Source of the DNA: a virus
Reading direction: 5' to 3' (one strand)
Virus record (IMG/VR): IMGVR_UViG_3300042197_002234
Location: 62,001-126,000 of that record
DNA length: 64,000 nucleotides
The notes under the pieces: model-generated
The model's database searches: none
Told to the model about the DNA's origin: nothing
The model's input: the letters and a program-made list of their open reading frames with translations, nothing else
Translations under genes and position numbers: made by a program
In this document: positions 9,898 through 62,797 of the stretch, in pieces
How positions within the stretch are numbered: the stretch's first letter is position 1
Layout: each line of letters opens with the position of its first letter

Positions 9898-9907
9898 GTT
9901 TAATTAA

Positions 9908-44107: not shown

Positions 44108-44502
44108 GGGGGTAACTCGGAATTGACTGACATAGTTGGTTATTCGGGGCACGCAGTGAGAGGGTTCCTATCACTTAAATCTATGGAGTCAACGATTAGA
44201 CGGCAACGTTCTAAACAAAATGGCGACTATCGGTCTTATCCGTGAAGACGCTGCGGTTGTAGCCTAAGGGATTAGGAAACACCATTCGGGTCGGGAGGAC
44301 ATTAACCCAGGAACAGAAGTCCTTATCAGGTGTGGTTTCTATCTTAAAAGGAACAAGTGGAGGATTAGTTCTCAGTAAACCGAACCACTTTAAAAATAAG
44401 GGAATTGTGAAATTTCGGAACATTAGCTTAAATGTTGTCCTAAGCGTGTAGTCCTTAGTAGTCAAGATGGACAAGACGACGGTTCGAACCCGTCTACCTC
44501 CA
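44108..44502 (+). ncRNA. ssrA: tmRNA (transfer-messenger RNA)
   Basis: The 5' end GGGGGTA pairs with TACCTCC (44495-44501) as a tRNA-like acceptor stem, followed by discriminator A; CCA is not encoded. The T arm is GACGG-TTCGAAC-CCGTC. A frame starting at GCG 44223 encodes ATIGLIREDAAVVA and ends TAA 44265-44267; its hydrophobic C-terminus is like the AA-ending degron tags. Length 395 nt fits one-piece tmRNA. tmRNA rescues stalled ribosomes and tags nascent chains. A promoter, boxA and terminator frame it. The resume codon is inferred from the frame, not proven. Confidence 0.9.
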
Positions 44503-44506
44503 CTTA

Positions 44507-45058
44507 TTAAACCTCATCTTCGGATGAGGTTTTTTTATTTAAACTAATTAGTTCACAAAATGAAATCATTTCCTCATGGGTCATAGAATTTTTTGCCAAA
44601 TTGGCGGCGATTGATATAAACTGTATGTTCCCTTTCACATAACCTTGTGATGAATCAACCCTATCGATGGATGCTGTTTTTAATTTATCATTACATCCGT
44701 TAATTTTGGGTAAAGATAACTCAACTCCAGTATACACACATGTATTTTGACGTTCCCATAGTTCTTTTAAATATTCTAAATCAATATCAAATTCATAATT
44801 ACGTTGCTTGACCCTTCGTAATAAATCTCTAAATCCTGTAAACTCATCTTTACGATTACTAGAATGTTTTGTAATGTCATATCCTGACCGATTATTAATT
44901 AATTTTTTGGTATTATATAATCCAACACACCTTCTACCACAAAAATTAAGTCTACCCTTGTCCAAATTTCTTTTTATTTCACTAGTTGGTTTATCGAATT
45001 CTAACCCACATTGGTAACAAACACATTTTTCGGTTTTTCGTTTATAAAATTTATTCAT
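44507..45058 (-). CDS. HNH-like endonuclease next to tmRNA
   Basis: 183 aa with a zinc-binding opening (CVCYQCGLEFDKPTSEIKRNLDKGRLNFCGRRCVG) and a C-terminal HNH-like region TASIDRVDSSQGYVKGNIQFISIAANLAKN. The layout matches the 16762 enzyme. Lying between tmRNA and the giant RNA, it is a probable homing endonuclease targeting a flanking RNA gene. Its stop falls in the tmRNA terminator stem. Confidence 0.8.
   Translation of the reverse strand: MNKFYKRKTEKCVCYQCGLEFDKPTSEIKRNLDKGRLNFCGRRCVGLYNTKKLINNRSGYDITKHSSNRKDEFTGFRDLLRRVKQRNYEFDIDLEYLKELWERQNTCVYTGVELSLPKINGCNDKLKTASIDRVDSSQGYVKGNIQFISIAANLAKNSMTHEEMISFCELISLNKKTSSEDEV
44509..44534 (+). terminator. tmRNA terminator
   Basis: AACCTCATC, TTCG, GATGAGGTT then a T run; a UUCG-capped intrinsic terminator just after the tmRNA. 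Confidence 0.9.
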
Positions 45059-45130
45059 ATCTTTTATTTTTCAATAAATATTGTGGATGTTAGGAAAAGT
45101 TGTGGATGTAGTAAAATTTAGTACATAAAA

Positions 45131-45165
45131 AAAGGGAAGAACTTTTCGCGAGTTGTTCTTCCCTT
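45131..45165 (-). terminator. strong terminator of the giant RNA
   Basis: Minus-sense AAGGGAAGAAC (rc of 45155-45165) pairs over 11 bp with GTTCTTCCCTT (rc of 45132-45142), then a 7-T run. It marks a defined 3' end for the minus-strand transcript. Confidence 0.9.
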
Positions 45166-46462
45166 GTTTTGTCCTAGGAATTTAAACCTACCGAGTCGTT
45201 AGTGACACAACTGCGGAACCCTATTTCGTTGGGTGGTACTAGTTTCACGAGTATTTTATTTTCAGTTTACATGTTTTAAGACCGTTAAACATTGTGGTTA
45301 TAATACTGTCCACATCCTAAAAATTAGTCTTTACCATTTTTTTACATTAACCATGGTGGTCTTGGTTTGACCCTACAGGGTAACTTTACTTTTTTAGTTT
45401 TTTTATGGAACAAAAACATGGTGTTGTTTGATTACTTATCAATCACCCTAAAACCTGTTGGAATAATTTGAAGGTCAGTTTTGACTCATGACTTCAGAGG
45501 ACTTACCACAATCACCTTCCTACATTGATTGGAGTCACTTGTTTTTCGGCTTAGGCTGAGAATACACCTTTTGTTGAGAACCTTTAGGGACATTATTGTT
45601 TCTTCCCGTTTCCACTTCCTTTTGAGAAGTATTTCTCAGTGACGGTTATTTAGGTGAACCACTCCTTGAGGTTTGAATTACTCTCATCTTACTTGACTCT
45701 TTCCGAGGATGCCTCCCCAGTTCGTCCTTGCGGGACTAAAGGTTTTTCGGATAACTACACGTTGGCTTGGGACCTCAGTGTGCAATGAACGGCTCATTAC
45801 TAAGTAGTCACCTTTCATTCAAACCTGACGGACACTTTTCCTTTTATTATTATTAAATGGTCTTTAATTTCAAATAAAGAGTTTTGTGTCGTGGATTGTC
45901 GAAGTAGTGGTCCGTCTGAGGATTTGTTATCTTTTGAACAACAAAATACCAAACTACTCCGTGAGATGTCCCCACCTCCATACTTCAAGACTACTTCGAG
46001 AAAATCCCTTTGGTAAAGGAAATTCAAGGATAATGTCGGCACCACCCGTTTGTTATCATACCTTTCGGTTTTAAGTATCCTATGATATTGGAACCCTCAA
46101 TAATGATTTTGGAAAACCATGTTTTGATTGATTCCTACGGGTTATTCCTATTGGTGTTCCCACCTCAAACAGACGACCCACATCGCCTGTTCATCTAACC
46201 ACTTTCCCTACAGCGTTGCCCTCGGTACTAAAGGTTAAACGGTATCCCGCTTGTGTACTCGACCTCGGTTTCCCAAGACGCAAATCTGTCAACACAACAG
46301 ACTCACTTTATCCCACTTTCGTGGTTTATTTAACGACCATACACGGCCGATTATCGTTTTCAAGTTATCATCACTCCGAAGAGTTACTTTCACCTGATGG
46401 ATAATTCAATAAGTCAAAGAACTTTTGAGAGTTGTATCTGAATCGTTGTCATTCTCAATTGT
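45132..46462 (-). ncRNA. giant structured noncoding RNA, about 1.33 kb
   Basis: The stretch has no plausible coding frame, is richer in G+C than the genes, and is bounded by a consensus promoter (P2) and an 11-bp terminator. Many stems are capped by stable tetraloops on the minus strand: UUCG at 46373-46384, GAAA at 46313-46324, 46264-46277 and 46060-46069. Other hairpins are at 45724-45736 and 45624-45637. A T-arm-like hairpin lies at 45174-45191. It resembles the size class and phage/tRNA-linked context of GOLLD and ROOL RNAs, but I cannot match it to either. No group I or II intron core or RNase P core was recognised. Confidence 0.75.
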
Positions 46463-46497
46463 TTTACAAAGTTAAGAAGATTTTTTCTATTTGTCAA
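46414..46497 (-). promoter_or_regulatory. promoter P2 and leader of giant RNA
   Basis: TTG (rc of 46495-46497), 20 nt, TAACTTTG (rc of 46467-46474). The leader forms a hairpin TTGAGA/TCTCAA (46425-46458) whose loop shows AACGATTCAGATACAA (rc of 46432-46447), followed by boxA GTTCTTTGA (rc of 46414-46422). Confidence 0.8.
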
Positions 46498-46509
46498 ATT
46501 TTTCTTAAA

Positions 46510-46665
46510 CTTTTTTTTTGATTACTATAACCGTTGTGGTAATATGTTTCACTTACACTTTAAATGCGAAGGACATCTGCTTTATTTCATACAGTTGAAA
46601 GTTTGTCCCGTAGTCACTTTCCTCACATACAACAGTAGCCCTACGGACCTAGACTGTTTCTGTAA
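46510..46665 (-). ncRNA. candidate structured RNA between tandem leaders
   Basis: Downstream of P1, the minus-sense RNA has GTCCGTAG pairing with CTACGGGAC (one bulge) around GAGGAAAGTG, and a 3' hairpin ATTAC...GTAAT. It has no terminator of its own, so it may be processed from a longer P1 transcript that reads through P2. The GAGGAAAGT string recalls RNase P P4, but the partner elements are not present. Confidence 0.5.
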
Positions 46666-46674
46666 CCAATATTT

Positions 46675-46758
46675 TCAAAGAACTTTTGAGAGTTGTATCT
46701 GAATCGTTGTCATTCTCAATTGTTTTACAAATTTAAGAAGAATTTTTTAATCTTCCAA
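46675..46758 (-). promoter_or_regulatory. promoter P1 and duplicated leader
   Basis: TTG (rc of 46756-46758), 20 nt, TAAATTTG (rc of 46728-46735), then the same TTGAGA/TCTCAA hairpin with AACGATTCAGATACAA (rc of 46693-46708) and boxA (rc of 46675-46683). About 65 nt are near-identical to the P2 leader. Confidence 0.8.
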
Positions 46759-46762
46759 ATTT

Positions 46763-46903
46763 TTAAAGAACTTTTTTTTAATTTCAGACTGTGCTACCGT
46801 CACACCTAATTTGATTAATTATGTGGTTAATTAATCTCGGAATTACACCATGTGTCTTTTCTGAAATGTTTTACAAAGGTAATAAAAAAAATGTGTCTGT
46901 CAA
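46763..46903 (-). promoter_or_regulatory. promoter P0 and leader module
   Basis: TTG (rc of 46901-46903), exactly 19 nt, TACCTTTG (rc of 46874-46881). The RNA that follows has TTTCAGA...TCTGAAA closing a loop of about 85 nt and ends in a boxA-like GTTCTTTAA (rc of 46763-46771). This makes a third start point ahead of the giant RNA. Confidence 0.65.
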
Positions 46904-47036
46904 TACCCTGAGCGATATTTTTTTTTAATTTAATAATAAATATAGCCATTTTGTTAAAAATTCATTTTTTTTTAGCTTGATTGTTGATTTTTTGGTATTT
47001 GTAACCTATTTATTAATCAAATTAAATTATTTAACT

Positions 47037-47210
47037 ATGAAAAAACTATTTTTCGCAACAATGATTACACTTTCTATGGTTATGGTATCATGTGGAGGAA
47101 ACAACACCGAGGCTACGACTGAATTAACTGACTCAACCGCTGTTGATTCTACTTTGGTAGATACTACAGCCGTATCAGTTGATACTGTTTCTGTGGATAC
47201 TGCAAACTAA
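47037..47210 (+). CDS. small lipoprotein, 57 aa
   Basis: ATG 47037 gives MKKLFFATMITLSMVMVSCGG, a lipoprotein signal with lipobox VSC. The mature part is a Thr/Asp/Val/Ser-rich tail with imperfect repeats (TAVDST, TLVDTT, SVDTVSVDT). Small surface lipoproteins of this type are common in flavobacteria and can act in superinfection exclusion. The in-frame start at 46977 would spoil the signal peptide. Confidence 0.75.
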   Translation: MKKLFFATMITLSMVMVSCGGNNTEATTELTDSTAVDSTLVDTTAVSVDTVSVDTAN

Positions 47211-47235: not shown

Positions 47236-47263
47236 AAACCCCTCATATGAGGGGTTTTTTTAT
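47236..47263. terminator. bidirectional intrinsic terminator
   Basis: AAAACCCCTCATATGAGGGGTTTTTTT, a perfect palindromic stem between convergent genes. Confidence 0.85.
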
Positions 47264-47871
47264 TTCATTAATTTTTTAATCCTTACAATTTCTTCGTTTA
47301 AATTATCTTCATCTTCACTTTTGTCGTCATCTTTTTTCTTTTTAGAAAATAAGTTTTTAACATCTTTTTTAATTTCCTTACCTACGTGAGTTGCAAGACT
47401 AAATGGTGACAAAAGAATGTCCATAAACGGATTTGGATTTTCTTCAGTATCTAATTTTGGTTTTTGTGTTGTCGTTTTAGTAGTTGTTTTATCTGATTTT
47501 TTTTCTTTATCTATTTTTAGTTTTTTACTAAAAAAGTTAGAAAGTTGTTGTTTACTATCTTTGTCATTAACAATATAAAATTTAATTTTATCATCAGAAA
47601 ATTTACCAATCATGGCACCCTGTTTAACTTTTTCACCATAACTAACATTTATGTTTTCAACATCGCAAAAAACAGAGTAAAATATGTTTTCATCAAACAT
47701 ATGTTTAATTTTAATATAGTTTCTACAATTTGGTGTTTGGTCAAACACTACAATACCCTCGTAAGGTGAAACTATTTTAGTATTTGGGGATGAAGATAAT
47801 TCGGCAACTTTTTGACTTTCGTATTTAAAATCACCATAAGGAGCTGGGTTTATAAATGTTGTTTCTGACAT
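47260..47871 (-). CDS. degenerate M23-like protein, 203 aa
   Basis: Residues 28-110 (NTKIVSPYEGIVVFDQ ... VNINVSYGEKVKQGAMIGKFSD) follow the LytM barrel, but zinc ligands HxxxD and HxH are absent, so it is probably a binding or structural version. The C-terminal half is Lys/Asp-rich and ends DEDNLNEEIVRIKKLM, similar to the amphipathic tag found at other protein ends. It overlaps no gene but is 2 nt behind the GAF-like gene. Confidence 0.55.
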   Translation of the reverse strand: MSETTFINPAPYGDFKYESQKVAELSSSPNTKIVSPYEGIVVFDQTPNCRNYIKIKHMFDENIFYSVFCDVENINVSYGEKVKQGAMIGKFSDDKIKFYIVNDKDSKQQLSNFFSKKLKIDKEKKSDKTTTKTTTQKPKLDTEENPNPFMDILLSPFSLATHVGKEIKKDVKNLFSKKKKDDDKSEDEDNLNEEIVRIKKLMK

Positions 47872-48544: not shown

Positions 48545-49624
48545 TTATAATTTTTCAAATTTTGGTTTTAGTAGTCTCCATACAATATGGTCATATGGTT
48601 TTTTATCCCACATTGCAAACATTACTGACCACAATTTAGGATTTACATATTTTTTAACATATTCCGCAAACTCTTTTTTAGAAGGTTCAGGGTCTACATC
48701 ATTATATTTACCATACCTAAAATAATCGTGTATTTTACCACAATATTCACCTATTTGATAGTGTGAATACCTTAAACCGCTTTCATATTGTTTTATTTTT
48801 TGATAAAACTCGTCAGGTATATTATCTAATAAAACTGACATATCACCATTTGATGATAGGACTTCCCACACCGAAGTTGTTGACACATTGGTCATTATCT
48901 TATGAAGACGCAAATATTCTTCACCTTTAACTTTCATTCTATCACCATTTGAAAATTTGATAACAAAACCTTCATGAGTATCTGCAATCATTTGTTTCAA
49001 ATAAGTGTAGTCGGTTATCCCATTATATTTTCTAACTAAGTTAAATCCTAAATTATTTAGTAAGTTTTTAAAACGGATATCATTTTCATTACCTGCGTGA
49101 ATATCAACCTCAACACCAGTTTTAGTGTGAATCATACCTAACAATACCAAGTCCTCAAAATCATACTGACAAACAATTCTATTTTCAGGATATATTATCT
49201 CGAATAAATAAGTGTAGTCAGTGTGTAATTTTTCGTAGTCATACTTTTTAAGTAATTCAGTTCCTTTGATAGATTGGTCAGAAGTAAATGAACCACGAGT
49301 CGCTAATACCCACTCACCTTTGTAATTAAACAAAATACCCAAAGAACCATCCATTTTTTCAAAAACTTCAAAATCGGAGGTTGCTACGTGACGATTTTCT
49401 TCCATATTGAAAAACTTCTTAAATGGTCTGGCAACTACGTTTCCTTCATTATCAGTAACTAAACCGCGACATTGCAGAGTTATTTCATCCCATAATCTGT
49501 ATTGGTCATATTGCACACCGTATTGAGTCTTTGGTGTATAATTCCAAATAGTCAAAGGAAGAGTTGGGTGAACTTGTTTCATCACCAACCCTTCCTCAAG
49601 ATATTTGTTTAACACTTCTAACAT
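48545..49624 (-). CDS. T4 Rnl1-like RNA ligase
   Basis: The 359-aa protein carries nucleotidyltransferase motif I FEKMDGSLGIL near residue 86 (Lys as AMP acceptor), then VLATRGSF, LFEIIYPENRIVCQY (motif IIIa) and EGFVIKFSNGDRMKVKGEEYL (motifs IV-V). The N-terminal YHPTLPLTIWNYTPKTQY-like region is typical of Rnl1. T4 Rnl1 rejoins tRNA cut by host anticodon nucleases. TATCTTTG ends 4 nt before the ATG, so it also has a near-leaderless internal promoter. Confidence 0.88.
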   Translation of the reverse strand: MLEVLNKYLEEGLVMKQVHPTLPLTIWNYTPKTQYGVQYDQYRLWDEITLQCRGLVTDNEGNVVARPFKKFFNMEENRHVATSDFEVFEKMDGSLGILFNYKGEWVLATRGSFTSDQSIKGTELLKKYDYEKLHTDYTYLFEIIYPENRIVCQYDFEDLVLLGMIHTKTGVEVDIHAGNENDIRFKNLLNNLGFNLVRKYNGITDYTYLKQMIADTHEGFVIKFSNGDRMKVKGEEYLRLHKIMTNVSTTSVWEVLSSNGDMSVLLDNIPDEFYQKIKQYESGLRYSHYQIGEYCGKIHDYFRYGKYNDVDPEPSKKEFAEYVKKYVNPKLWSVMFAMWDKKPYDHIVWRLLKPKFEKL

Positions 49625-49640
49625 AACACAAAGATACTAA

Positions 49641-50681
49641 TTATTTTTCATTTAATAAAAAATTATTTGAAATCGCTTTAAAACTAATTTTATTATCAAA
49701 TGAACGAACCACAACACCTTCTCTTTCAGTTTGTCTATTTAAAACTGAAGTACCTTCAGCATATTTCAACATACCCTCAACAGTATTTGGTAGTAGAAAT
49801 GGTAGTTCCAAACAAGGAACGTATTGTAAATTTAATGTTTCCATCAATTCTAAAAATTGTGACATTGTCATTCTTTCATGTTTGTCAATATCAAAAGCAT
49901 TAAAAAACATTACTTTTTGACCTTTAATTTTATACGGATTCCCTTGGATGCCTTCACCAATAAGTTCACCTTGTAAACAGATATTTTTACCAGTTGATTT
50001 AAGTTTTTCTTCCAAGTTCATTTCTCTAGCTACTTTCCAAAAAGTATTACCTTCCGTTTCAAGTAATTCTAAATTACGAGAACATACGCCAAACTCACCA
50101 TCTTTATAATAAAATGTTGATGATGACCCATCAAGTTTTTCAGTAACGTAAAACTGATTTTTTGATTGGTATAAAAATTCTTGATATTCTTTTGTAATAT
50201 TTTGAACTCTTTCTTCGTCGGTTTTTTGTAGAAAAGATGGGAATAAACCTTTAACCTTACCTGCAAGTTCTGCAGGGATTGGTGGTTCATATTTTACGAT
50301 ACCCAACATTTCAGTTATATCAAGACCTTCAAATGGTGTAACATAAATGTTTGTATCGGGTGGGTTCAAAACGATGATTGGTAAAATCAAACCTTGCGAT
50401 ACTTGACCCCTTAATTTAATAGTTTTCAATCTGAACCCTTCTTGGTCACCCATTTTTTTATATGAACTCTTTCTCAAGAATTCAAATTCAGGACGTACAG
50501 GTAAAAATGAATCAATTTCGCAATAAATTACCATATCACCTACTTTGTGACCAACATCTTTTGCAACCACAACTTTCCATCCGTCTACAGTTGCCAATTC
50601 AATTTTATCCGCCCCTTCAATTGGGGATATGTCTGAAATTTTTCTAATCGATGCTAACTTTCTTTCTGTTTTTACTTCCAT
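49641..50681 (-). CDS. RNA ligase, DRB0094/Rnl5-like
   Basis: 346 aa with an N-terminal OB-like domain (ASIRKISDISPIEGADKIELATVDGWKVVV) and a ligase core with motif I VTEKLDGSSSTFYY near residue 184, VCSRNLEL, LQGELIGEGIQGN and EGVVVRSF. Presence of an N-terminal OB module before the core matches the Deinococcus-type ligase that seals 3'-OH/5'-P nicks. Two different ligases side by side suggest repair of distinct RNA break types. Confidence 0.85.
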   Translation of the reverse strand: MEVKTERKLASIRKISDISPIEGADKIELATVDGWKVVVAKDVGHKVGDMVIYCEIDSFLPVRPEFEFLRKSSYKKMGDQEGFRLKTIKLRGQVSQGLILPIIVLNPPDTNIYVTPFEGLDITEMLGIVKYEPPIPAELAGKVKGLFPSFLQKTDEERVQNITKEYQEFLYQSKNQFYVTEKLDGSSSTFYYKDGEFGVCSRNLELLETEGNTFWKVAREMNLEEKLKSTGKNICLQGELIGEGIQGNPYKIKGQKVMFFNAFDIDKHERMTMSQFLELMETLNLQYVPCLELPFLLPNTVEGMLKYAEGTSVLNRQTEREGVVVRSFDNKISFKAISNNFLLNEK

Positions 50682-55504: not shown

Positions 55505-55555
55505 AATACAAAGATACAAAAAAAATCTGAACCAAAAAAATATTGGTAAAAAAAG

Positions 55556-55629
55556 TGGACCCTGCAGGGCTTGAACCTGCGACCCCTGCATTATGAGTGC
55601 AACGCTCTAACCATCTGAGCTAAGAGTCC
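55556..55629 (-). tRNA. tRNA-Met (CAT)
   Basis: Acceptor GGACTCT/AGGGTCC, D arm GCTCAGATGGTTAGAGC, anticodon loop CTCATAA, T loop TTCAAGC. CCA is not encoded. Could be elongator Met or, if modified, Ile2. Confidence 0.9.
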
Positions 55630-55630
55630 T

Positions 55631-55819
55631 AAAAATAAAAAATGATGTGGGGTATTCCTATTTAGTTTAAATTAACCAGTAGTCTGTTAATGTACACTTG
55701 TTGGTTTTACATCCCCACACCAATAACACACTCATAAGCATTCTACTTCCAGCTCCGAGAAATCGTATCTAACTTAGCCCATCTCACCGCTGTATGGGTA
55801 CTTAAGTTTATGTGTTTTG
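55631..55819 (-). other. structured spacer between tRNAs
   Basis: No ORF or tRNA. Minus-sense stems include AACTTA...TAAGTT enclosing CCCAT/ATGGG, and GTGGGG...CCCCAC. Probably transcribed with the tRNAs. Confidence 0.5.
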
Positions 55820-55891
55820 TAGCCCCTACGGGAATCGAACCCGTCTTTTTAGGATGAAAACCTAATGTCCTAACCGATAGACGAAAGGGCC
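55820..55891 (-). tRNA. tRNA-Glu (TTC)
   Basis: Acceptor GGCCCTT/AGGGGCT, anticodon stem TTAGG/CCTAA with loop TTTTCAT, T arm ACGGG-TTCGATT-CCCGT. Confidence 0.9.
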
Positions 55892-56430
55892 ATAAATAAA
55901 AGGTGTTGAATCATCCCTACGCCATTATAGGAACACCTTTTGTTTTAATATTTGGCGAATTAATATTCCTACCTATATTCCCAAGATTCGTCAGAACATA
56001 GTAACCATCCAAGGTAGGCCTATACTATTACACTCCGTCCATATTTACTCACCTAATCAGATTAGTCATAGGTTTTTCAGATACAGCGTTCAGTGCTACC
56101 CTCAGGACATCTTCACCCTACCCCATAGTTACGTGGTGGTCTCACTCGGAAGAAGAGTGTGTATTGTAGAATTGTCCAGTATTTCTACAACTTGTGGATT
56201 GTATTATGACTAATTAAAGCCCCTAACCCCCTTAATCCATAATGGGGAACTCTTGTTTTAAAGATTCCAACATACCTGAAAGAACTTCCCCTTCTCAGTG
56301 AACACCGTTTATAAGGTGTTATATGTTTTTCACTTTGTGTGTATCTATCCCCCATAGCCCCAAAGACTTCTAGTCGGGGTTCACACACCATAACAGTCGA
56401 GTACTACTGTTAATCGTGGGGTCATTTGCT
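55892..56430 (-). other. 540-nt gene-free structured RNA region
   Basis: No supported ORF. Just before tRNA-Glu, AAAAGGTGTT pairs with AACACCTTTT (55898-55941). Further minus-sense pairings are GTGTG...CACAC near 56340-56390, CACC/GGTG near 56295 and GGGGAA...TTCCCC near 56235-56285. Base composition is like the giant RNA, unlike the genes. Candidate second large ncRNA or processed spacer. Confidence 0.5.
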
Positions 56431-56435
56431 GATTA

Positions 56436-56520
56436 AAGGGAATCGAACCCAATCCTCCGACCCCGTTTACCCCTATGAGGGGGCCACTAGGGTCAGTATG
56501 CCCATTACATCATAACCAAT
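56436..56520 (-). other. tRNA-like element with extended anticodon domain
   Basis: A T-arm-like segment TTGGG-TTCGATT-CCCTT is present, but the middle has GACCC/GGGTC (56459-56494) enclosing a second hairpin CCCC-TCATA-GGGG (56470-56482). Acceptor pairing is poor. Not called a tRNA. Confidence 0.4.
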
Positions 56521-56568
56521 CGTCAGTTTCGAACCTGACAGTTCAAGGTTAATTACTCCTTGAGTTTG

Positions 56569-56646
56569 TTGCGATTTGTGGACTCGAACCACACAGGGGG
56601 TGCGACCCAACTCGGTTCATGAGACCGACCTTACACCTGTATCGCA
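56569..56646 (-). tRNA. atypical tRNA (CAT), D arm reduced
   Basis: Acceptor TGCGATA/ATCGCA, anticodon stem TCGGT/ACCGA with loop CTCATGA, variable arm GGGT-CGC-ACCC and T arm TGTGG-TTCGAGT-CCACA are clear. Only about 11 nt separate the acceptor from the anticodon stem, so no normal D arm fits. It may be a tRNA-like decoy or a derived Met/Ile tRNA. Confidence 0.5.
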
Positions 56647-56651
56647 GTTTT

Positions 56652-56736
56652 TGGTACTCGGAGCGGGACTCGAACCCGCACGGACAATGTCCAGCAGATT
56701 TTAAGTCTGCCTTGGCTACCTTTACAACACCCGAGC
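56652..56736 (-). tRNA. tRNA-Leu (TAA)
   Basis: Class II: acceptor GCTCGGG/TCCGAGT, anticodon stem GCAGA/TCTGC with loop CTTAAAA, long variable arm TGGACATTGTCCG, T arm GCGGG-TTCGAGT-CCCGC; CCA appears encoded. Confidence 0.9.
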
Positions 56737-56743
56737 GTTTATT

Positions 56744-56787
56744 TCAAAGAACACTACAAAGATAAAGAACAAATTTCATATGAACAA
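56744..56787 (-). promoter_or_regulatory. promoter and boxA of tRNA cluster A
   Basis: TTG (rc of 56785-56787), 20 nt, TATCTTTG (rc of 56757-56764), then boxA GTTCTTTGA (rc of 56744-56752), 8 nt before tRNA-Leu. Confidence 0.8.
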
Positions 56788-56808
56788 TACCTTTATAATT
56801 TTTTTTTG

Positions 56809-56912
56809 TCCACTCTGTTGGATTCGAACCAACTTACTCACTCTATATTCGGATACTGCAGTATCAGGCGATATAGAGGTCATCGTGTTTTACCACATAA
56901 CACTAAGAGTGA
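56809..56912 (-). other. tRNA-like RNA with long anticodon arm, 104 nt
   Basis: Acceptor TCACTCT/AGAGTGG (7 bp), D arm GTGT...AACAC and T arm GTTGG-TTCGAAT-CCAAC are canonical. The anticodon arm is replaced by an 8-bp stem CTCTATAT/ATATAGAG (56841-56878) carrying an inner palindromic hairpin GATACTGCAGTATC (56852-56865). No standard 7-nt anticodon loop is present. Confidence 0.65.
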
Positions 56913-56917
56913 ATTTG

Positions 56918-56991
56918 TAGTCGGGGTGGGAATTGAACCCACGACCTTGATGATATAAGCATCCTGCTCTCGACCCCTGAGCTACCCGACC
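56918..56991 (-). tRNA. tRNA-Ile (TAT)
   Basis: Acceptor GGTCGGG/CCCGACT, D arm AGCTCAGGGGTCGAGAGC, anticodon loop CTTATAT on stem GATG/CATC, T loop TTCAATT. Reads AUA, a common codon in this AT-rich genome. Confidence 0.85.
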
Positions 56992-57207
56992 AAATGCCCC
57001 CACCCTGAGATTCCAGGTGAGTAGATATATCGGTTTTCTTTCTTTCAATAAACCTGTGGGTCTTACCCTCTTAAAATTAGTCAACACTACTGGGAGGGAT
57101 TGTGTCGGTTCCCTTTGTTCCCACGATGTCCCACTCGCGCCGTAGACATTCTGCGGAATCATTCTTAAAGTCTTGATTCGAAGACTCTGAGTATCTCTTA
57201 CTCATTG
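56992..57207 (-). other. 216-nt spacer without gene
   Basis: No tRNA or convincing ORF. Balanced base composition suggests transcribed RNA, but I see no dominant closing stem. Confidence 0.4.
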
Positions 57208-57279
57208 AGCTTCCACCCAGGGTCGAACTGGGGACTACTGATTACAAGTCAGTTATTTTACCTGCTAAACTACAGAAGC
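57208..57279 (-). tRNA. tRNA-Thr (TGT)
   Basis: Acceptor GCTTCTG/TGGAAGC, anticodon stem ACTGA/TCAGT with loop CTTGTAA, T arm CCCAG-TTCGACC-CTGGG. Confidence 0.9.
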
Positions 57280-57442
57280 TTATTTATCGTATCTCCGATG
57301 GGAATCGAACCCACCTTGTAAATTACTTGTCAATTGCTCTGACTTATCTCTACAAACTAGTATAAGTAGTGTTAGGCCAATTAACCATCATTTACCCACT
57401 CACTGTTTTTGGTGCGACCTCAACAGATACGGAGATGTTTTG
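57280..57442 (-). other. spacer with isolated T-arm-like segment
   Basis: GTGGG-TTCGATT-CCCAT (near 57300-57316) followed by CGGAGATA looks like a tRNA 3' half, but no matching 5' half (TATCTCC) lies upstream. Probably a tRNA remnant. Confidence 0.4.
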
Positions 57443-57522
57443 TACCGAAGGAGAGACTCGAACTCTCACGCCATATGCAGATGCTTCTAAAACATCCGTG
57501 TCTACCATTCCACCACTTCGGC
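57443..57522 (-). tRNA. tRNA-Leu (TAG)
   Basis: Acceptor GCCGAAG/CTTCGGT, anticodon stem GATGT/GCATC with loop TTTAGAA, variable arm GCATATGGCG, T arm GAGAG-TTCGAGT-CTCTC. Confidence 0.88.
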
Positions 57523-57632
57523 AATTTGTGGGTAGGGTCCTCCCACATTAGACTTAAGGTTTCGGATTCTTTAAAGACAATTCCTAAATGTCAACCGCCC
57601 GCATGTCCTTCACCTTAAAGCGGGAGCCCCTT

Positions 57633-57709
57633 ATGGAGCGAGAGACGAGATTTGAACTCGCGACCCCAACCTTGGCAAGGTTGTGCTCTACCAACTGAGC
57701 TACTCCCGC
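57633..57709 (-). tRNA. tRNA-Gly (GCC)
   Basis: Acceptor GCGGGAG/CTCTCGC, D arm AGCTCAGTTGGTAGAGC, anticodon stem CAACC/GGTTG with loop TTGCCAA; CCA encoded. Confidence 0.92.
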
Positions 57710-57917
57710 AATTAAAAGAAACTTTCCTTCTACGCTCACCGTAGTTTTGGATTTTACTGATGGTTGGTTCCCCATCACCTGTTATGAGTGCACCATAGAG
57801 CAGGGTCCATCACAGAGTCCTTCGGGTCATGTACCTTCGTTATAGTTGCGACCTATTTGAAGCCGAAGTACCTTTCAACGGTGCTAATCCGTCTTCTGTA
57901 AGGAAAGGTTCTTTTTG
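57710..57917 (-). other. 208-nt spacer between two Gly tRNAs
   Basis: No T arm, no tRNA and no convincing ORF seen. GTTCTTT-like text is absent on the sense strand apart from GGTTCTTTTT on the opposite strand. Probably processed out of the cluster B transcript. Confidence 0.4.
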
Positions 57918-57990
57918 AGCAGGTGGAGGTAATCGAAACCTCATCTTCAGAGTGGAAATCTGACATAATATGCCATTATACGACACCTGC
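57918..57990 (-). tRNA. tRNA-Gly (TCC)
   Basis: Acceptor GCAGGTG/CACCTGC, anticodon stem TCAGA/TCTGA with loop TTTCCAC, T stem GAGGT/ACCTC with loop TTCGATT. Confidence 0.9.
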
Positions 57991-58085
57991 GTATTCGAGT
58001 CAGAGTAGTCACGGCCACCTCTGTTCCTTCTGACTCTTATTATAACCGTGGCAAAATGTGGCTCGACCCAAGTTATAATCATTAG

Positions 58086-58160
58086 TTGCGGGGGTAGGAT
58101 TCGAACCTACGTCATTCGGCTTATGAGACCGAGCTGGAACCAACTCCAGTCCACCCCGCC
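58086..58160 (-). tRNA. tRNA-fMet/Met (CAT), initiator-like
   Basis: The 5' GGCGGGG and 3' CCCCGCA leave position 1-72 unpaired, an initiator trait. Loop CTCATAA; T arm GTAGG-TTCGAAT-CCTAC. The anticodon stem lacks the three G:C pairs of E. coli tRNA-fMet, so the initiator call is tentative. Confidence 0.8.
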
Positions 58161-58165
58161 ATTTG

Positions 58166-58237
58166 CGGTCCGTGCGGGAGTCGAACCCGCCACACTGCCG
58201 TGACAGGGCAGCATTATAGCCGATTAACTAACGGACC
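58166..58237 (-). tRNA. tRNA-Asp (GTC)
   Basis: Acceptor GGTCCGT/ACGGACC, anticodon stem CTGCC/GGCAG with loop CTGTCAC, T arm GCGGG-TTCGACT-CCCGC. Confidence 0.92.
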
Positions 58238-58243
58238 TAATTG

Positions 58244-58318
58244 TGGAGACAGTGGGAATTGAACCCACCACACTTTCCTTGCAAGGGAAAATCGCCAAGC
58301 CTTGGTACATGTGTCCCC
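58244..58318 (-). tRNA. tRNA-Ala (TGC)
   Basis: Acceptor GGGGACA/TGTCTCC, anticodon stem TTTCC/GGAAA with loop CTTGCAA, T loop TTCAATT. The D region (CCAAGGCTTGG) is unusual for Ala. Confidence 0.75.
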
Positions 58319-58341
58319 ATTTTTTTTTCTTCACCAATATG

Positions 58342-58403
58342 TCAAAGAACCTTTATCTTTTTAACAACACTACAAAGTTACAAAAGAAATTTTAAAAAAA
58401 CAA
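58342..58403 (-). promoter_or_regulatory. promoter and boxA of tRNA cluster B
   Basis: TTG (rc of 58401-58403), 20 nt, TAACTTTG (rc of 58373-58380), boxA GTTCTTTGA (rc of 58342-58350) followed by CATATTGGT, the same string as in the cluster E leader. Confidence 0.8.
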
Positions 58404-58410
58404 CATCCTT

Positions 58411-58445
58411 GAAAAACAAAAAACCCACCTTTTTATGGGTGGGTT
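58411..58445 (-). terminator. intrinsic terminator ahead of cluster B
   Basis: Minus-sense AACCCACC, 8-nt loop, GGTGGGTT then T run. It ends the transcript carrying the 23-aa ORF. Confidence 0.85.
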
Positions 58446-58471
58446 TGGTATTTCATAGTGTTAGTTTAAAA

Positions 58472-58543
58472 TCATACCATACCCACCTGAGTCAATCCTA
58501 TTGCTTCAGTTGTGCCTAAAAGTATGATATCTAAATTTCTCAT
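58472..58543 (-). CDS. candidate micro-ORF, 23 aa
   Basis: ATGAGA... encodes MRNLDIILLGTTEAIGLTQV plus three residues, between the 58617 gene and a terminator. A comparable short ATGAGA ORF followed by a terminator precedes tRNA cluster E. Translation is unproven. Confidence 0.35.
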   Translation of the reverse strand: MRNLDIILLGTTEAIGLTQVGMV

Positions 58544-58616
58544 TTTTTGCGTTATTGTTTTTTCTTAAATATACCCATTTTTAAAAAAGTATCAATATTA
58601 AGTTTAAAAATACCGA

Positions 58617-58811
58617 TTATTTTTTTGCTTCGGTAATTTTTTCTTTAAACTCAAACCTAATTGTATCACCAACACTATACTTTCGATTGGTACCAATAAT
58701 ACCCGTTTCTAAATGATTTTCAGCGTTTTTTACCTCATAGGTATAGGTTCCGTTAACATCAATGTCACAACAAAGAACCAAAAAAAGTTTAATAATTACA
58801 ATCTCTTTCAT
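58617..58811 (-). CDS. small exported protein, 64 aa
   Basis: Start at 58811 (MKEIVIIKLFLVLCCDIDVNG): a short hydrophobic signal with Cys-Cys, likely a lipoprotein or secreted peptide. The mature part YTYEVKNAENHLETGIIG is beta-like. It begins 4 nt after the upstream stop. Function unknown. Confidence 0.55.
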   Translation of the reverse strand: MKEIVIIKLFLVLCCDIDVNGTYTYEVKNAENHLETGIIGTNRKYSVGDTIRFEFKEKITEAKK

Positions 58812-58815
58812 ATGA

Positions 58816-59283
58816 TTAATTTTTAGTAAATGATTTATCTGCCCAAGTTTTAGCACCCATACGCTCCCAAATTTGGATATCACACATTTCAGGGAAAGAA
58901 GTTCTCATGTCACCAACAGTCAACACTTCCAAGAACCCTTTGTCAATACCAAACCACTTTCCGCTCTTGGTGGTGTATACGTTCATCCAATGACCGTACT
59001 CATTTTTAACCTGAATGTTAACCAAGGCGTTTTTCTTGAATCCAGCGATTACGTTTTTAGGGTAATCAGTTGTGTCACTCATTGTAATGAAACCAGCCTT
59101 ACATTTTACTGCCACACGAAACTCATATTTTTTATCAGTGTCTTTAATGTGGTTTGACACCATTACGTTTATTAATTTGTCTTTGATTCGAGTTTTGAAT
59201 GAACCGAAGAATACATCTCCAGCCATTGTTCCTACAGTTTCTACGATAATTGAGCTTGGGGTGTTTGTGTTGGTATTTGTCAT
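58816..59283 (-). CDS. hypothetical protein, 155 aa
   Basis: ATG 59283 (MTNTNTNTPSSIIVETVG) follows a consensus promoter by about 20 nt. The protein is beta/alpha mixed (KYEFRVAVKCKAGFITM, NVYTTKSGKWFGIDKGFLEVL) with no recognised family. It is a promoter-proximal gene of a two-gene unit. Confidence 0.6.
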   Translation of the reverse strand: MTNTNTNTPSSIIVETVGTMAGDVFFGSFKTRIKDKLINVMVSNHIKDTDKKYEFRVAVKCKAGFITMSDTTDYPKNVIAGFKKNALVNIQVKNEYGHWMNVYTTKSGKWFGIDKGFLEVLTVGDMRTSFPEMCDIQIWERMGAKTWADKSFTKN

Positions 59284-59304
59284 ATTATTTCCGATTTTGT
59301 TATA

Positions 59305-59334
59305 CAAAGATACAACAAAATTTCAAACTACCAA
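59305..59334 (-). promoter_or_regulatory. host-type promoter TTG-N19-TATCTTTG
   Basis: TTG (rc of 59332-59334) and TATCTTTG (rc of 59305-59312) are 19 nt apart. Confidence 0.75.
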
Positions 59335-59342
59335 AACTTTTT

Positions 59343-59804
59343 TTAAAAAAGATAAGAATGTCTGTATTGTAATGGAATTGCTAACCCAAAACCCCAATAT
59401 TTTTCATTAGACACACTATAAGCAATTGCTATATCCCATTGATTTCTTTTTTGAGTTATCATCTTTAATGGGTGAAATTTAACCCAAACTTCAGGTTTTA
59501 TTTCTTTATTGGTATTTGGTAATGTATTGAATTTAATACCCGTACCGATAACTAATCCATTTTTTAAAACACCATAATTAATTCCAAATCTGTTTAAATA
59601 AGGGCTTGGATTCATTTGTCCTATCGGTGCTGAAACCATCCACATATTGTAACCTCCTCCCGCATGAATACCAAACCCTTTGGTGTCCAAGTTTTCCATA
59701 GATAACATAAAACTTTGTTCACCAGGAAAATATGTAATACCTGAGTACTGACCCCACACTTTTGACGTAAAAAATAACGTCAATATAAAAATTATTTTTT
59801 TCAT
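59343..59804 (-). CDS. exported outer-membrane-like protein, 153 aa
   Basis: Signal peptide MKKIIFILTLFFTSKVWGQ. The mature part alternates polar and hydrophobic residues (GFGIHAGGGYNMWMVSAPIG, NQWDIAIAYSVSNEKYWGFGLAIPL) like a small beta-barrel and ends in Phe. It starts 3 nt downstream of tRNA-Tyr on the same strand, so it may be expressed from the tRNA transcript. Confidence 0.65.
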   Translation of the reverse strand: MKKIIFILTLFFTSKVWGQYSGITYFPGEQSFMLSMENLDTKGFGIHAGGGYNMWMVSAPIGQMNPSPYLNRFGINYGVLKNGLVIGTGIKFNTLPNTNKEIKPEVWVKFHPLKMITQKRNQWDIAIAYSVSNEKYWGFGLAIPLQYRHSYLF

Positions 59805-59807
59805 TTG

Positions 59808-59893
59808 TGGAAGTGGTAGGATTCGAACCTACAAGTTTACCGCAAGGGACCTGTTTTACAGACAGGCGAGCACACCATTTGCTCAACACTTCC
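59808..59893 (-). tRNA. tRNA-Tyr (GTA)
   Basis: Class II: acceptor GGAAGTG/CACTTCC, anticodon stem CCTGT/ACAGG with loop CTGTAAA, variable arm CCCTTGCGGT, T loop TTCGAAT. Confidence 0.92.
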
Positions 59894-60104
59894 AAGTTAG
59901 GAAAGAGGAAGATGGTTCAGTGGACATCCTCTTTTACGATTGGCGTTACTCAGGTGTATATCTCCAAACTCCGATGATACCGACCGATATACACTCTCAT
60001 GTCATAGGTATCACCATTCCCCAATCAACCTATAATTTTAAACTAACACCATGACTCCTTTCGACCTTGCACGAGTCGTATCATTCAACTCTGTGTTAGT
60101 TTTG
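59894..60104 (-). other. 210-nt spacer between Tyr and Asn tRNAs
   Basis: No tRNA or ORF. Contains complementary AGAGGA...TCCTCT (59903-59934) and balanced composition; probably transcribed. Confidence 0.4.
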
Positions 60105-60179
60105 CTCCCTCGACAGGATTCGAACCTGTGACCCAACGGTTAACAGCCGTTTGCTCTAAACCTACTGAGCTACGAAGGA
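60105..60179 (-). tRNA. tRNA-Asn (GTT)
   Basis: Acceptor TCCTTCG/CGAGGGA, anticodon stem AACGG/CCGTT with loop CTGTTAA, T arm ACAGG-TTCGAAT-CCTGT. Confidence 0.92.
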
Positions 60180-60183
60180 ATTT

Positions 60184-60256
60184 GCACGGATAGAAGGACT
60201 CGAACCTCCACCAACAGTTTTGGAGACTGGGATGCTACCATTACACCATATCCGTG
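60184..60256 (-). tRNA. tRNA-Trp (CCA)
   Basis: Acceptor CACGGAT/ATCCGTG, anticodon stem CCAGT/ACTGT with loop CTCCAAA, T loop TTCGAGT. Confidence 0.88.
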
Positions 60257-60261
60257 TGTTT

Positions 60262-60337
60262 GAGGTCAGAGTCAGATTTGAACTGACGAATACTTGTTTT
60301 GCAGACAAGCCCCTTAAACCACTTGGGTATCTGACCT
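60262..60337 (-). tRNA. tRNA-Cys (GCA)
   Basis: Acceptor AGGTCAG/CTGACCT, anticodon stem CTTGT/ACAAG with loop CTGCAAA, T loop TTCAAAT. Confidence 0.92.
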
Positions 60338-60393
60338 TAGAGTGTAGTGGGGGGTACCTCCCCTGTGGTTACTACACATTTAACCCACTTTAG

Positions 60394-60468
60394 TGTCCCC
60401 GACAGGGCTCGAACCTGTGACCCGTACATTAAAAGTGTACTGCTCTAATCCAACTGAGCTACGAAGAC
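60394..60468 (-). tRNA. tRNA-Lys (TTT)
   Basis: Acceptor GTCTTCG/CGGGGAC, anticodon stem GTACA/TGTAC with loop CTTTTAA, T loop TTCGAGC. Confidence 0.92.
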
Positions 60469-60475
60469 ATAATTT

Positions 60476-60527
60476 ACGGCTCAAAGAATCTGAGTTTGTG
60501 GCTCAGAAACGCCCAATTTTGAGCCGT
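60476..60527 (-). other. 10-bp processing-type hairpin between tRNAs
   Basis: ACGGCTCAAA (60476-60485) pairs perfectly with TTTGAGCCGT (60518-60527); the 32-nt loop holds another short stem (CTGAG/CTCAG). No T run follows, so it is more likely a processing signal than a terminator. Confidence 0.6.
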
Positions 60528-60531
60528 ATTG

Positions 60532-60606
60532 TAGTCAAGGTTGGACTTGAACCAACGACCTTCTGCGTATCAGGCAGACGCTCTAAACCGACTGAGCTAC
60601 ATGACT
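60532..60606 (-). tRNA. tRNA-Ile (GAT)
   Basis: Acceptor AGTCATG/CTTGACT, anticodon stem TCTGC/GCAGA with loop CTGATAC, T arm GTTGG-TTCAAGT-CCAAC. TATATTTG (rc of 60626-60633) upstream may be its promoter. Confidence 0.92.
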
Positions 60607-60695
60607 ATGTTTTAGTTTTACTGAGCAAATATAACCATTTTTTGGTATATAACGCTCTGTTTTACTATTTTTTTTTTAATATTACCCGACATCAA

Positions 60696-61241
60696 TCATT
60701 TTGATTCAAACTTTTTAATAAAATTTTCACGATAATTGTCAATTATTTGTGAAATTTCACTTCTATACTTTGAGTGTATGTAGTGATGGTGTGTCGGACA
60801 TAACGGTATTAGGTTTTCTATTGAGTTATTAGTATGAACTTCATCGTAGTGGTGAACCGCAACTATTTTATTTTCACCACAAACAACACATTTGTGTTCA
60901 TGATGTTCAAAACAGATTCTACGATAACCATTTTTAGTTTCCGAATATTTACCCCAATTAGGGTTATTTTCACCACTTCTAAAATAAGTATTAGAACAAG
61001 AATGAGAACATGTAACTTTTTCATCTCTATTACCTTTTGAAGTTTCAAAAGATTTGTTACAAACAGGACATTCTTTAATTATTCTATTATAGATTAATTT
61101 TCTACTCCTCAAATGACTAATATCCACCCCATTTTGGTTTATGAATGATTCAAACTTTTTTCTATTTGACCCATTATCATATCCAAACATTTTTATTATC
61201 GCTTCTGACTTAGTTTTCGATGTTTTAATTATATCCTCCAT
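60696..61241 (-). CDS. HNH endonuclease, 181 aa
   Basis: Zinc-finger part ECPVCNKSFETSKGNRDEKVTCSHSCSN near residue 55, then YRRICFEHHEHKCVVCGENKIVAVHHYDEVHTNNSIENLIPLCPTHHHYIHS, a complete HNH-type core. ATATTTATTAGT precedes the ATG exactly as at 16762. It lies between tRNA clusters, a usual homing endonuclease niche. Confidence 0.88.
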   Translation of the reverse strand: MEDIIKTSKTKSEAIIKMFGYDNGSNRKKFESFINQNGVDISHLRSRKLIYNRIIKECPVCNKSFETSKGNRDEKVTCSHSCSNTYFRSGENNPNWGKYSETKNGYRRICFEHHEHKCVVCGENKIVAVHHYDEVHTNNSIENLIPLCPTHHHYIHSKYRSEISQIIDNYRENFIKKFESK

Positions 61242-61304
61242 ACTAATAAATATCTAAATTTGTCGTAAAGTCAAATTTTAATCAAAACTTGTTTAAACGA
61301 TTAG

Positions 61305-61379
61305 TCGGGTAGACTGGACTCGAACCAGCACAATGTCCTCATCCCAAATGAGGCGACCTACCAATTGGTCTACTACCCG
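61305..61379 (-). tRNA. tRNA-Pro (TGG)
   Basis: Acceptor CGGGTAG/CTACCCG, anticodon stem CCTCA/TGAGG with loop TTTGGGA, T loop TTCGAGT. Confidence 0.92.
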
Positions 61380-61389
61380 TTACTTTCAG

Positions 61390-61475
61390 CGGAAGGAGAG
61401 GGGCTCGAACCCTCGCGGCTTTGACACCCTAACAGTTTAGCAAACTGCCCCCTTCACCAACTTGGGTACCCTTCC
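61390..61475 (-). tRNA. tRNA-Ser (GCT)
   Basis: Class II: acceptor GGAAGGG/TCCTTCC, anticodon stem CAGT/ACTG with loop TTGCTAA, long variable arm, T arm GAGGG-TTCGAGC-CCCTC. Confidence 0.92.
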
Positions 61476-61512
61476 TTTTTTTCCGACCTAGCTCGGGAAC
61501 ACACATCGGATG

Positions 61513-61584
61513 TAGTTCTTGAAGGACTTGAACCCTCAATTCCTCGTCCGTAGCGAGACGTGTTATCCATTACACCAAAGAACT
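61513..61584 (-). tRNA. tRNA-Arg (ACG)
   Basis: Acceptor AGTTCTT/AAGAACT, anticodon stem TCTCG/CGAGG with loop CTACGGA, T loop TTCAAGT. ACG needs A34-to-I editing (TadA) to read CGU/CGC/CGA. Confidence 0.9.
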
Positions 61585-61588
61585 ATTT

Positions 61589-61678
61589 TGGCGGAAGCGA
61601 AGGGAATCGAACCCCCAACACGCTATTAACGTGCTACTTGTTTTCAAGACAAGCTCCTCGTCCATTCGGACCACTTCC
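61589..61678 (-). tRNA. tRNA-Ser (TGA)
   Basis: Class II: acceptor GGAAGTG/CGCTTCC, anticodon stem CTTGT/ACAAG with loop CTTGAAA, long variable arm with CACG/CGTG, T loop TTCGATT; CCA encoded. Confidence 0.92.
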
Positions 61679-62215
61679 ATTTTTTTAGGTCGTGACGAAC
61701 CCATCTGTCACTTCTTAATAGATTCTTGTAGTTTACTTACCGCGGTTCAATCCGTTACTAACAGGGAACCCAACCTATTTTGGGTGTAGGGACGGTACCG
61801 ACCCGTCTTATCTAGTTCCACAAACTAGTGCATCACCTTAATGCTTCAAACACCATGTAAAATTGATGGTAATTGGATTTATCAGGAATCCCGTCCACGA
61901 CTTCACACACCATTAGAGAGTTGAGTATTTCTACTTATCCTTAGTGTGTACCCTTGCGTCACGTCTCTCCACGCTTACCAATCTACGCCTTGTACCATCA
62001 ATTTTGTAGTCAGGGTCGGACTCGAACCGAATACCGTTCAAGACGGATTAGACAACCTTACGACTCCATAGAACCCACAAGTGTCTGGGACTATTGGTCT
62101 TGGGGACTCGGGTACCATCCCTCATTACGTCCACCTAACTATTTACCCCACTTCACCAGCTTAACGGACTGGCTGCCATGTGGGAGTGGGGGTTTCCTGT
62201 TATTTCAGGACTCCG
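61679..62215 (-). other. gene-free RNA spacer with one tRNA-like remnant
   Basis: No ORF is supported. At about 62006-62075 a T-arm-like TTCGG-TTCGAGT-CCGAC, acceptor end CCTGACTA and a CCGT/ACGG arm with TTGA occur, but the D arm is missing and the acceptor pairing is partial. The rest is balanced-composition sequence, probably transcribed in cluster D. Confidence 0.45.
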
Positions 62216-62288
62216 TGGTGAGAGCTGGAATCGAACCAGCGGCACGTAGGGCTTCAACCTACTGCTCTACCTACTGAGCTATCACACC
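62216..62288 (-). tRNA. tRNA-Phe (GAA)
   Basis: Acceptor GGTGTGA/TCTCACC, D arm AGCTCAGTAGGTAGAGC, anticodon stem GTAGG/CCTAC with loop TTGAAGC, T arm GCTGG-TTCGATT-CCAGC. Confidence 0.93.
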
Positions 62289-62298
62289 ATATAAAAAA

Positions 62299-62435
62299 TG
62301 ATAGTGTTGGGATACCCGTCTCGTCCCAATCTTAACTGCTTAATCGTAGTTTTACGAGGCCTCGGCAGAGGGTGTTGAACACTGTGAACCTTACAACTAC
62401 TTTGTCGACTTTCATTGTAAGAGTGACCACTATCA
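62299..62435 (-). ncRNA. candidate multibranched small RNA, 137 nt
   Basis: An 8-bp closing stem TGATAGTG/CACTATCA brackets at least three internal stems: CTTACAA/TTGTAAG (62390-62421), TCGTA/TACGA (62344-62357) and TTGGGA/TCCCAA (62307-62329). It lies between the cluster D boxA leader and tRNA-Phe, so it would be excised from the same precursor. No ORF, and no known family recognised. Confidence 0.65.
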
Positions 62436-62449
62436 ATATTTTTTCTATT

Positions 62450-62548
62450 TCAAAGAACCCTTTTCGTCTGGGGTGTAGGTAACCCTATCAAACCTACACC
62501 CCCATCGTTTGTGAATACAAAGTTACAAAACATTTTTCTAACTAACAA
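62450..62548 (-). promoter_or_regulatory. promoter, hairpin and boxA of tRNA cluster D
   Basis: TTG (rc of 62546-62548), 20 nt, CAAAGTTA-complement -7 box at about 62518-62526, then an 11-bp hairpin GGGGTGTAGGT/ACCTACACCCC (62470-62502) and boxA GTTCTTTGA (rc of 62450-62458). Confidence 0.75.
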
Positions 62549-62569
62549 GTACCCACTTATTTTTTTTTG

Positions 62570-62643
62570 TAGTCCCTGTCGGATTCGAACCAACGACCCT
62601 CTGCATGTAAGGCAGATGCTCTAACCAACTGAGCTAAAGGACT
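62570..62643 (-). tRNA. tRNA-Val (TAC)
   Basis: Acceptor AGTCCTT/AGGGACT, D arm AGCTCAGTTGGTTAGAGC, anticodon stem TCTGC/GCAGA with loop CTTACAT, T loop TTCGAAT. Confidence 0.92.
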
Positions 62644-62649
62644 ATTAAG

Positions 62650-62720
62650 TTGCGTGTTCGGGGTTCGAACCCGATTGACCTTCCTTATGAGAGAAAGTTC
62701 TTTTCCCCTAAGCCACGCAA
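62650..62720 (-). tRNA. tRNA (CAT), Met or Ile2 type
   Basis: Acceptor TGCGTG/CACGCA, anticodon loop CTCATAA on a weak stem TTTCT/GGAAG, T arm TCGGG-TTCGAAC-CCCGA. With three to four CAT tRNAs in the window, one is likely lysidine-modified Ile2; which one cannot be told. Confidence 0.75.
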
Positions 62721-62726
62721 TTTATG

Positions 62727-62797
62727 TTACCCCCCAAGGATTCGAACCTCGATTAAGTGGACCAAAACCACTTGTCCTGCCATTAGACGAGAGGGTA
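62727..62797 (-). tRNA. tRNA-Gln (TTG)
   Basis: Acceptor TACCCTC/GGGGGTA, anticodon stem AGTGG/CCACT with loop TTTTGGT, T loop TTCGAAT. Confidence 0.92.

Follow-up and report, generated by a model that had tools for sequence, protein, structure and literature searches.

The region described here lies in a 64,000-nt window (minus- and plus-strand positions below are counted from its first letter) that covers positions 62,001 to 126,000 of the virus record IMGVR_UViG_3300042197_002234, which has 195,527 bases in total. On the minus strand, an ORF scan of the block 45132–46462 detected only ORFs of ≤76 amino acids, none of them gene-like, in agreement with an earlier note on this DNA that had called the block gene-free. 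We are highly confident that the region 45126–46412 consists of a GOLLD RNA of ~860 nt (5' domain, variable linker, and 3' domain), behind which a separable RNA module of ~380 nt (hereafter tail) and a terminator lie on the same strand. An additional structured RNA of ~155 nt (hereafter element) is located upstream of GOLLD, between two identical copies of a promoter/boxA-like leader (table 1).

Table 1. Features of the GOLLD region in window coordinates, listed in the direction of the minus strand
Feature	Position	Strand	Basis
Distal promoter-like site, Bacteroidota type (TTTG ... TAAATTTG)	46728..46759	-	Pattern match; recurs in relatives
Leader copy 1, 57 nt, boxA-like end AAAAGTTCTTTGA	46675..46731	-	Identical to copy 2
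Element, apparently undescribed structured RNA of ~155 nt	46515..46669	-	30 distinct homologues covary; own model 166.6 bits
Proximal promoter-like site (TTTGAC ... TAACTTTG)	46467..46498	-	Pattern match
Leader copy 2, 57 nt, boxA-like end AAAAGTTCTTTGA	46414..46470	-	Identical to copy 1
GOLLD 5' domain (5' limit approximate)	45962..46385	-	Alignment with two GOLLDs of >600-kb phages; 12 of the 29 best covarying pairs
GOLLD 3' domain	45553..45961	-	Rfam RF02032 model positions 1–416, 327.7 bits, E = 3.9e-93
Variable linker in GOLLD (limits approximate)	45842..45898	-	Unpaired and poorly conserved in Rfam alignment
Tail, conserved 3' RNA module, starts AAGUGACUCC	45165..45540	-	Conserved in 14 distinct loci; covariation; model R2 145.7 bits
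Intrinsic terminator closing the tail	45126..45164	-	Inverted repeat and T run seen; same place in relatives

A phage tmRNA gene (44108–44505, plus strand, 68.7 bits with Rfam) converges on the GOLLD unit, and 24 tRNA genes covering most amino acids are found on one strand at 55555–62797 (minus). Within this tRNA array lies a member of a known family, freshwater-1 RNA (RF02979; 57752–57814, minus strand, 76.3 bits). Protein-coding neighbors include an M23 peptidase (47260–47871) and two adjacent RNA ligases (48545–50681, minus strand; Pfam RNA_lig_T4_1 and RNA_ligase), whose pairing is suggestive of tRNA repair.

The Rfam GOLLD model (RF02032; gathering cut-off 150 bits) spans only the 3' domain of this RNA and was matched over its full length. 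The 5' domain, a separate and less conserved unit of ~420 nt, is present too, as shown by covariation and by alignment: upstream of 45961, the window can be aligned to the matching part of two GOLLD-bearing phage records of >600 kb. In total, GOLLD occupies ~830–860 nt, from about 45553 to 46385–46412. The solved GOLLD env-38 has 833 nt, with residues 1–420 forming the 5' domain and residues 421–833 the 3' domain (PMC12286853). By analogy, the variable linker of the window would correspond to the linker that is disordered in the cage interior of the solved RNA (PMC12286853).

The window RNA thus resembles GOLLD in its full-length 3' domain match, its 5' domain, its linker, and its total length of ~860 nt, as well as in its phage and tRNA context and a conserved contact dinucleotide (see below). 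It differs in having a conserved 3' module beyond the Rfam model, and the apparently undescribed ~155-nt RNA and tandem promoter/boxA-like leaders upstream. The earlier note had proposed a wholly new class of phage RNA of ~1.3 kb that has no motif in common with GOLLD. It is true that the block is longer than the solved GOLLD, as the note had observed, and that its 3' third matches no Rfam family; however, the excess length is a separate conserved RNA module, the 5' half aligns with other GOLLDs, and the full-length match of 327.7 bits contradicts the absence of common motifs. We consider a new class extremely improbable for the block as a whole, and for 45553–46385 it is ruled out by the Rfam match and the 5'-half alignment. 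Other large RNAs named in the note share only general likeness: ROOL is a large phage/prophage RNA near tRNAs which also forms a cage (PMC12286853), and HEARO and OLE are large bacterial structured RNAs. ROOL gave no Rfam match at the gathering threshold, nor at E ≤ 1 over 44900–47060, and the same was observed for HEARO and OLE in the window; GOLLD was matched instead.

To analyze the structure of this RNA, we gathered 141 loci by DNA patterns and a neighboring RNA ligase, plus later loci. From these, 57 distinct GOLLD sequences were taken, equivalent to an effective number of 37 when weighted at 90% identity, and covariation was scored between all columns. Strong covariation was observed in both domains. 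All of the 29 top covarying pairs are ≥98% standard pairs with frequent two-sided changes, and 12 of them fall in the 5' domain, outside the Rfam model. The structure is far above chance, which bears out the earlier description of a structured, phage-linked, and tRNA-associated noncoding RNA. The hairpins listed in that description all exist in the sequence but are unequally supported: those at 46313–46324, 46264–46277, and 45724–45736 sit on covarying pairs, and the T-arm-like hairpin at 45174–45191 covaries in relatives, whereas the one at 45624–45637 competes with a better supported helix (45628–45616). One contig (L108) contains GOLLD twice, at 4080–4894 and 9627–10441; the copies appear to be identical and point in opposite directions, possibly reflecting a terminal repeat or an assembly effect.

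In the published 14-mer cage of GOLLD, one of the loop contacts (B8) is symmetric, and the dinucleotide inside it can be either GC or CG (PMC12286853). In our alignment, the loop dinucleotide at about 45731–45729 is GC in 34, CG in 18, and AT in 5 of the 57 sequences, and is self-complementary in 57/57. This dinucleotide appears to match the symmetric bridge B8 of PMC12286853, in which case the loop would be L21a by position and description. A loop-to-junction pair (45840–45770) also switches, between C-G (32 sequences) and G-C (24 sequences) among the 57, and the neighboring pair 45841–45769 is G-C in 55 and T-A in 2. The former switch is consistent with bridge B7 (L20–J13/15). Both bridges were assigned from their description in PMC12286853, not by aligning individual residues to the solved RNA, and the assignments are therefore putative. 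All evidence given here, including that for the GOLLD fold, the conserved contact dinucleotide, and the conserved order of the cassette, is computational.

Promoter-like sites were identified with the Bacteroidota-type pattern TTTG-N-TAnnTTTG, which has 14 matches in the whole window (4.85 expected). The identical 57-nt leader occurs twice, with a chance expectation of 0. A consensus promoter and a boxA leader had been reported previously, and both are present, but in two sets rather than one. Many relatives have one or two leaders like those of the window in front of their GOLLD. A looser promoter pattern, applied without a chance control, gave a match in 42 of the 50 distinct GOLLD loci whose upstream flank was long enough. 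Transcription probably starts from the leaders, and a single transcript of 1.33 kb is plausible. The transcript ends are uncertain because there are two promoters. The terminator proposed in the earlier note is visible as an inverted repeat and a T run at about 45126–45164 on the minus strand; our terminator scanner missed it because its loop exceeds the scanner's 8-nt limit.

The tail is ~380 nt long and has a terminator at its end in most relatives. In the window and in loci L080, L099, and L141, there is no tRNA and the tail lies directly 3' of GOLLD. In many other relatives, a tRNA-Met begins ~12 nt after GOLLD, and the sequence behind this tRNA starts with AAGTGACTCC. In L143, the distance between GOLLD and tail is about 640 nt, and an ORF on the reverse strand, located between GOLLD and the 3' part of the tRNA-Met preceding the tail, resembles a GIY-YIG homing endonuclease (start MKYTIYKITN, from reading of the sequence only).

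Five tail helices have a covariation of 0.281, versus 0.131 ± 0.016 in shuffled and ≤0.169 in slid controls (14 distinct sequences, MAFFT register). The arms H1, H4, H6, H7, and H8 each score above all 500 shuffles, a weaker test than that in the MAFFT register as these arms were hand-picked by eye; for some of them, the string was picked up where it recurs elsewhere in the sequence, which leaves the pair counts unchanged. RNAalifold recovered only a few helices from the whole tail, owing to misplaced gaps in the MAFFT alignment. The first bases of the tail (AGUGA) could form a kissing pair with the loop of H7 (UCACU), although these bases hardly vary. H8 is the T-arm-like hairpin, at about 45175–45190, and its T-loop-like loop, together with the tRNA-Met that adjoins the tail in relatives, gives the module some likeness to a tRNA T-arm or tmRNA. 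Neither ARAGORN nor Rfam identified a tRNA or tmRNA in the tail, and 45165–45540 matched no Rfam 15 family, with only chance-level hits on the opposite strand (E = 0.51).

A covariance model of the 3' half of the tail detected the tail behind GOLLD in L161, a locus outside the training set of the model. The model also detected the tail in L041, a 58.8-kb contig in which leader, tRNA-like sequence (not called as a tRNA by ARAGORN), and tail occur in succession and GOLLD is absent. This is the only case found of a tail without GOLLD, all other tails having been found behind it. L163 has a motif resembling the tail within its GOLLD region, which in all likelihood matches by chance. The L041 arrangement indicates that the tail is a separable module, and implies that GOLLD and tail may not be one functional RNA. 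Alternatively, the tail might be an integral third domain of the GOLLD cage RNA, present in every subunit, as may be suggested by its lack of a promoter-like leader of its own and its position directly after GOLLD in the window, L080, L099, and L141. However, most sampled GOLLD loci lack the tail, the tRNA-Met that intervenes in many tail-bearing loci would be cut out by RNase P/Z, and L041 has the leader, the tRNA-like sequence, and the tail but not GOLLD. We regard an integral third domain as unlikely.

The element consists of a closing helix (P1), hairpin Pc, helix P2, and hairpins Pb and P5, and a six-pair kissing interaction (Pa) joins the loops of Pc and Pb. Among 30 distinct sequences, 92.3% of the possible standard pairs are formed in the six helices, and two-sided changes are seen in 27 of the 41 base pairs, a set that includes the kissing interaction. 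Covariation is 0.611, compared with 0.206 ± 0.012 in shuffled and ≤0.162 in slid controls; the structure was partly inferred from the same 30 sequences, and the gap to the controls is very large. Energy folding of the element region alone gave no signal (z = -0.32), for which the kissing interaction in the fold is probably responsible, and covariation was therefore used for the element. RNAalifold also predicts the nested part, and a model of this part finds FpV4-type copies, which are outside the model, at 82–88 bits. Some copies have a 31-nt insert where others carry a different hairpin or none. An Rfam 15 search up to E = 10 gave only chance hits to the element (best E = 0.37, all far under gathering scores), and the element in 11 other loci had no Rfam 15 match either. 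Two resemblances were considered and rejected: an RNase P-like element (common GAGGAAAGU) has no Rfam support, and the helix order does not fit the topology of an HDV-like pseudoknot.

We then analyzed the distribution of the element. BLAST of the region against phages matched 29 Flavobacterium phages at a spot upstream of GOLLD; FpV4, the only one of the 29 examined, has a tmRNA nearby and lacks GOLLD. Pattern searches revealed the element in 46 viral stretches and in 2 genome assemblies, and a copy nearly identical to that of L160 is present in a 735-kb phage record. Overall, the element is found near GOLLD, tRNA, or tmRNA genes in diverse phages. Of the 50 distinct GOLLD loci with enough flank, a sample partly picked via the element, 18 have the element upstream of GOLLD at a distance of ≤700 nt. 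GOLLD is above the cut-off in 21 of 44 records, which were picked for the element or the tail and do not give an unbiased rate. Five element-bearing phages (L007, L010, L173, L177, and L180) have divergent GOLLD-like matches of 72–86 bits, under the Rfam cut-off.

From 1.5 kb upstream to 3 kb downstream of the element, every GOLLD is on the element's strand, and so are all nearby tRNA and tmRNA genes with a single exception, the tmRNA that L174 has 2 kb downstream. This shared strand, and the boxA-like leaders that flank the element in the window, raise the possibility that it acts in cis as an antitermination RNA, similar to the put and EAR RNAs, and allows polymerase to traverse long arrays that are not translated. 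On the other hand, the element does not stand at the start of the tRNA genes in L183 (where it is between tRNA-Thr and tRNA-Asn), L172, and L177, but within or after them, and we consider an antitermination role doubtful.

Thus, the cassette contains one known kind of RNA, GOLLD, and two RNAs without an Rfam 15 family, tail and element, which apparently represent undescribed families. We found no description of either in the papers searched, and an earlier listing under another name is possible. Concerning their role, we give an even chance to the reading that tail and element are separate RNA genes in a GOLLD/tRNA operon of untranslated RNAs and do not act on GOLLD. Such independence is consistent with elements that lack a GOLLD and are found close to tmRNA or within tRNA arrays, and with the one tail without GOLLD; less easily explained by it are the 18 of 50 GOLLD loci with the element close upstream (in that partly element-chosen sample) and the finding of the tail elsewhere only behind GOLLD. 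A more speculative reading, to which we assign a rather low probability, is that a multi-RNA cassette makes GOLLD cages in Bacteroidota-type phages, in which element and tail would serve as assembly partner, regulator, or cargo and tRNA-Met would be optional.

A likely mechanism may be outlined as follows. Transcription would begin at a host-type promoter and yield a long RNA that is not translated; the boxA-like leader would help RNA polymerase to read through without Rho termination, as boxA does in rRNA operons. The RNA would then fold into two domains, and loop–loop contacts might assemble it into a multi-copy cage like that of the solved env-38 GOLLD, as the conserved contact sites suggest. 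During the lytic stage, the cage would enclose or display covalently linked or translation-related RNA; candidates for a linked RNA are the linker and, in relatives, tRNA-Met and tail. GOLLD expression is reported to go up in lysis, and ribosomes to bind GOLLD in pull-downs (PMC12286853). Enclosure or display of such RNA in the lytic stage is the function we consider most likely for the cage, as a tentative hypothesis with less than an even chance.

Apart from GOLLD, the element constitutes an RNA family that is well supported and has an elaborate fold, and the phages that carry it range from a group of isolated Flavobacterium psychrophilum phages to a 735-kb metagenomic phage. The conserved RNAs behind and before GOLLD are concrete candidates for cargo or partners of the cage, and they make the role of the GOLLD cage testable by co-purification. 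If both families are new and GOLLD-linked, they would provide concrete candidates for the partners or cargo of an RNA cage.
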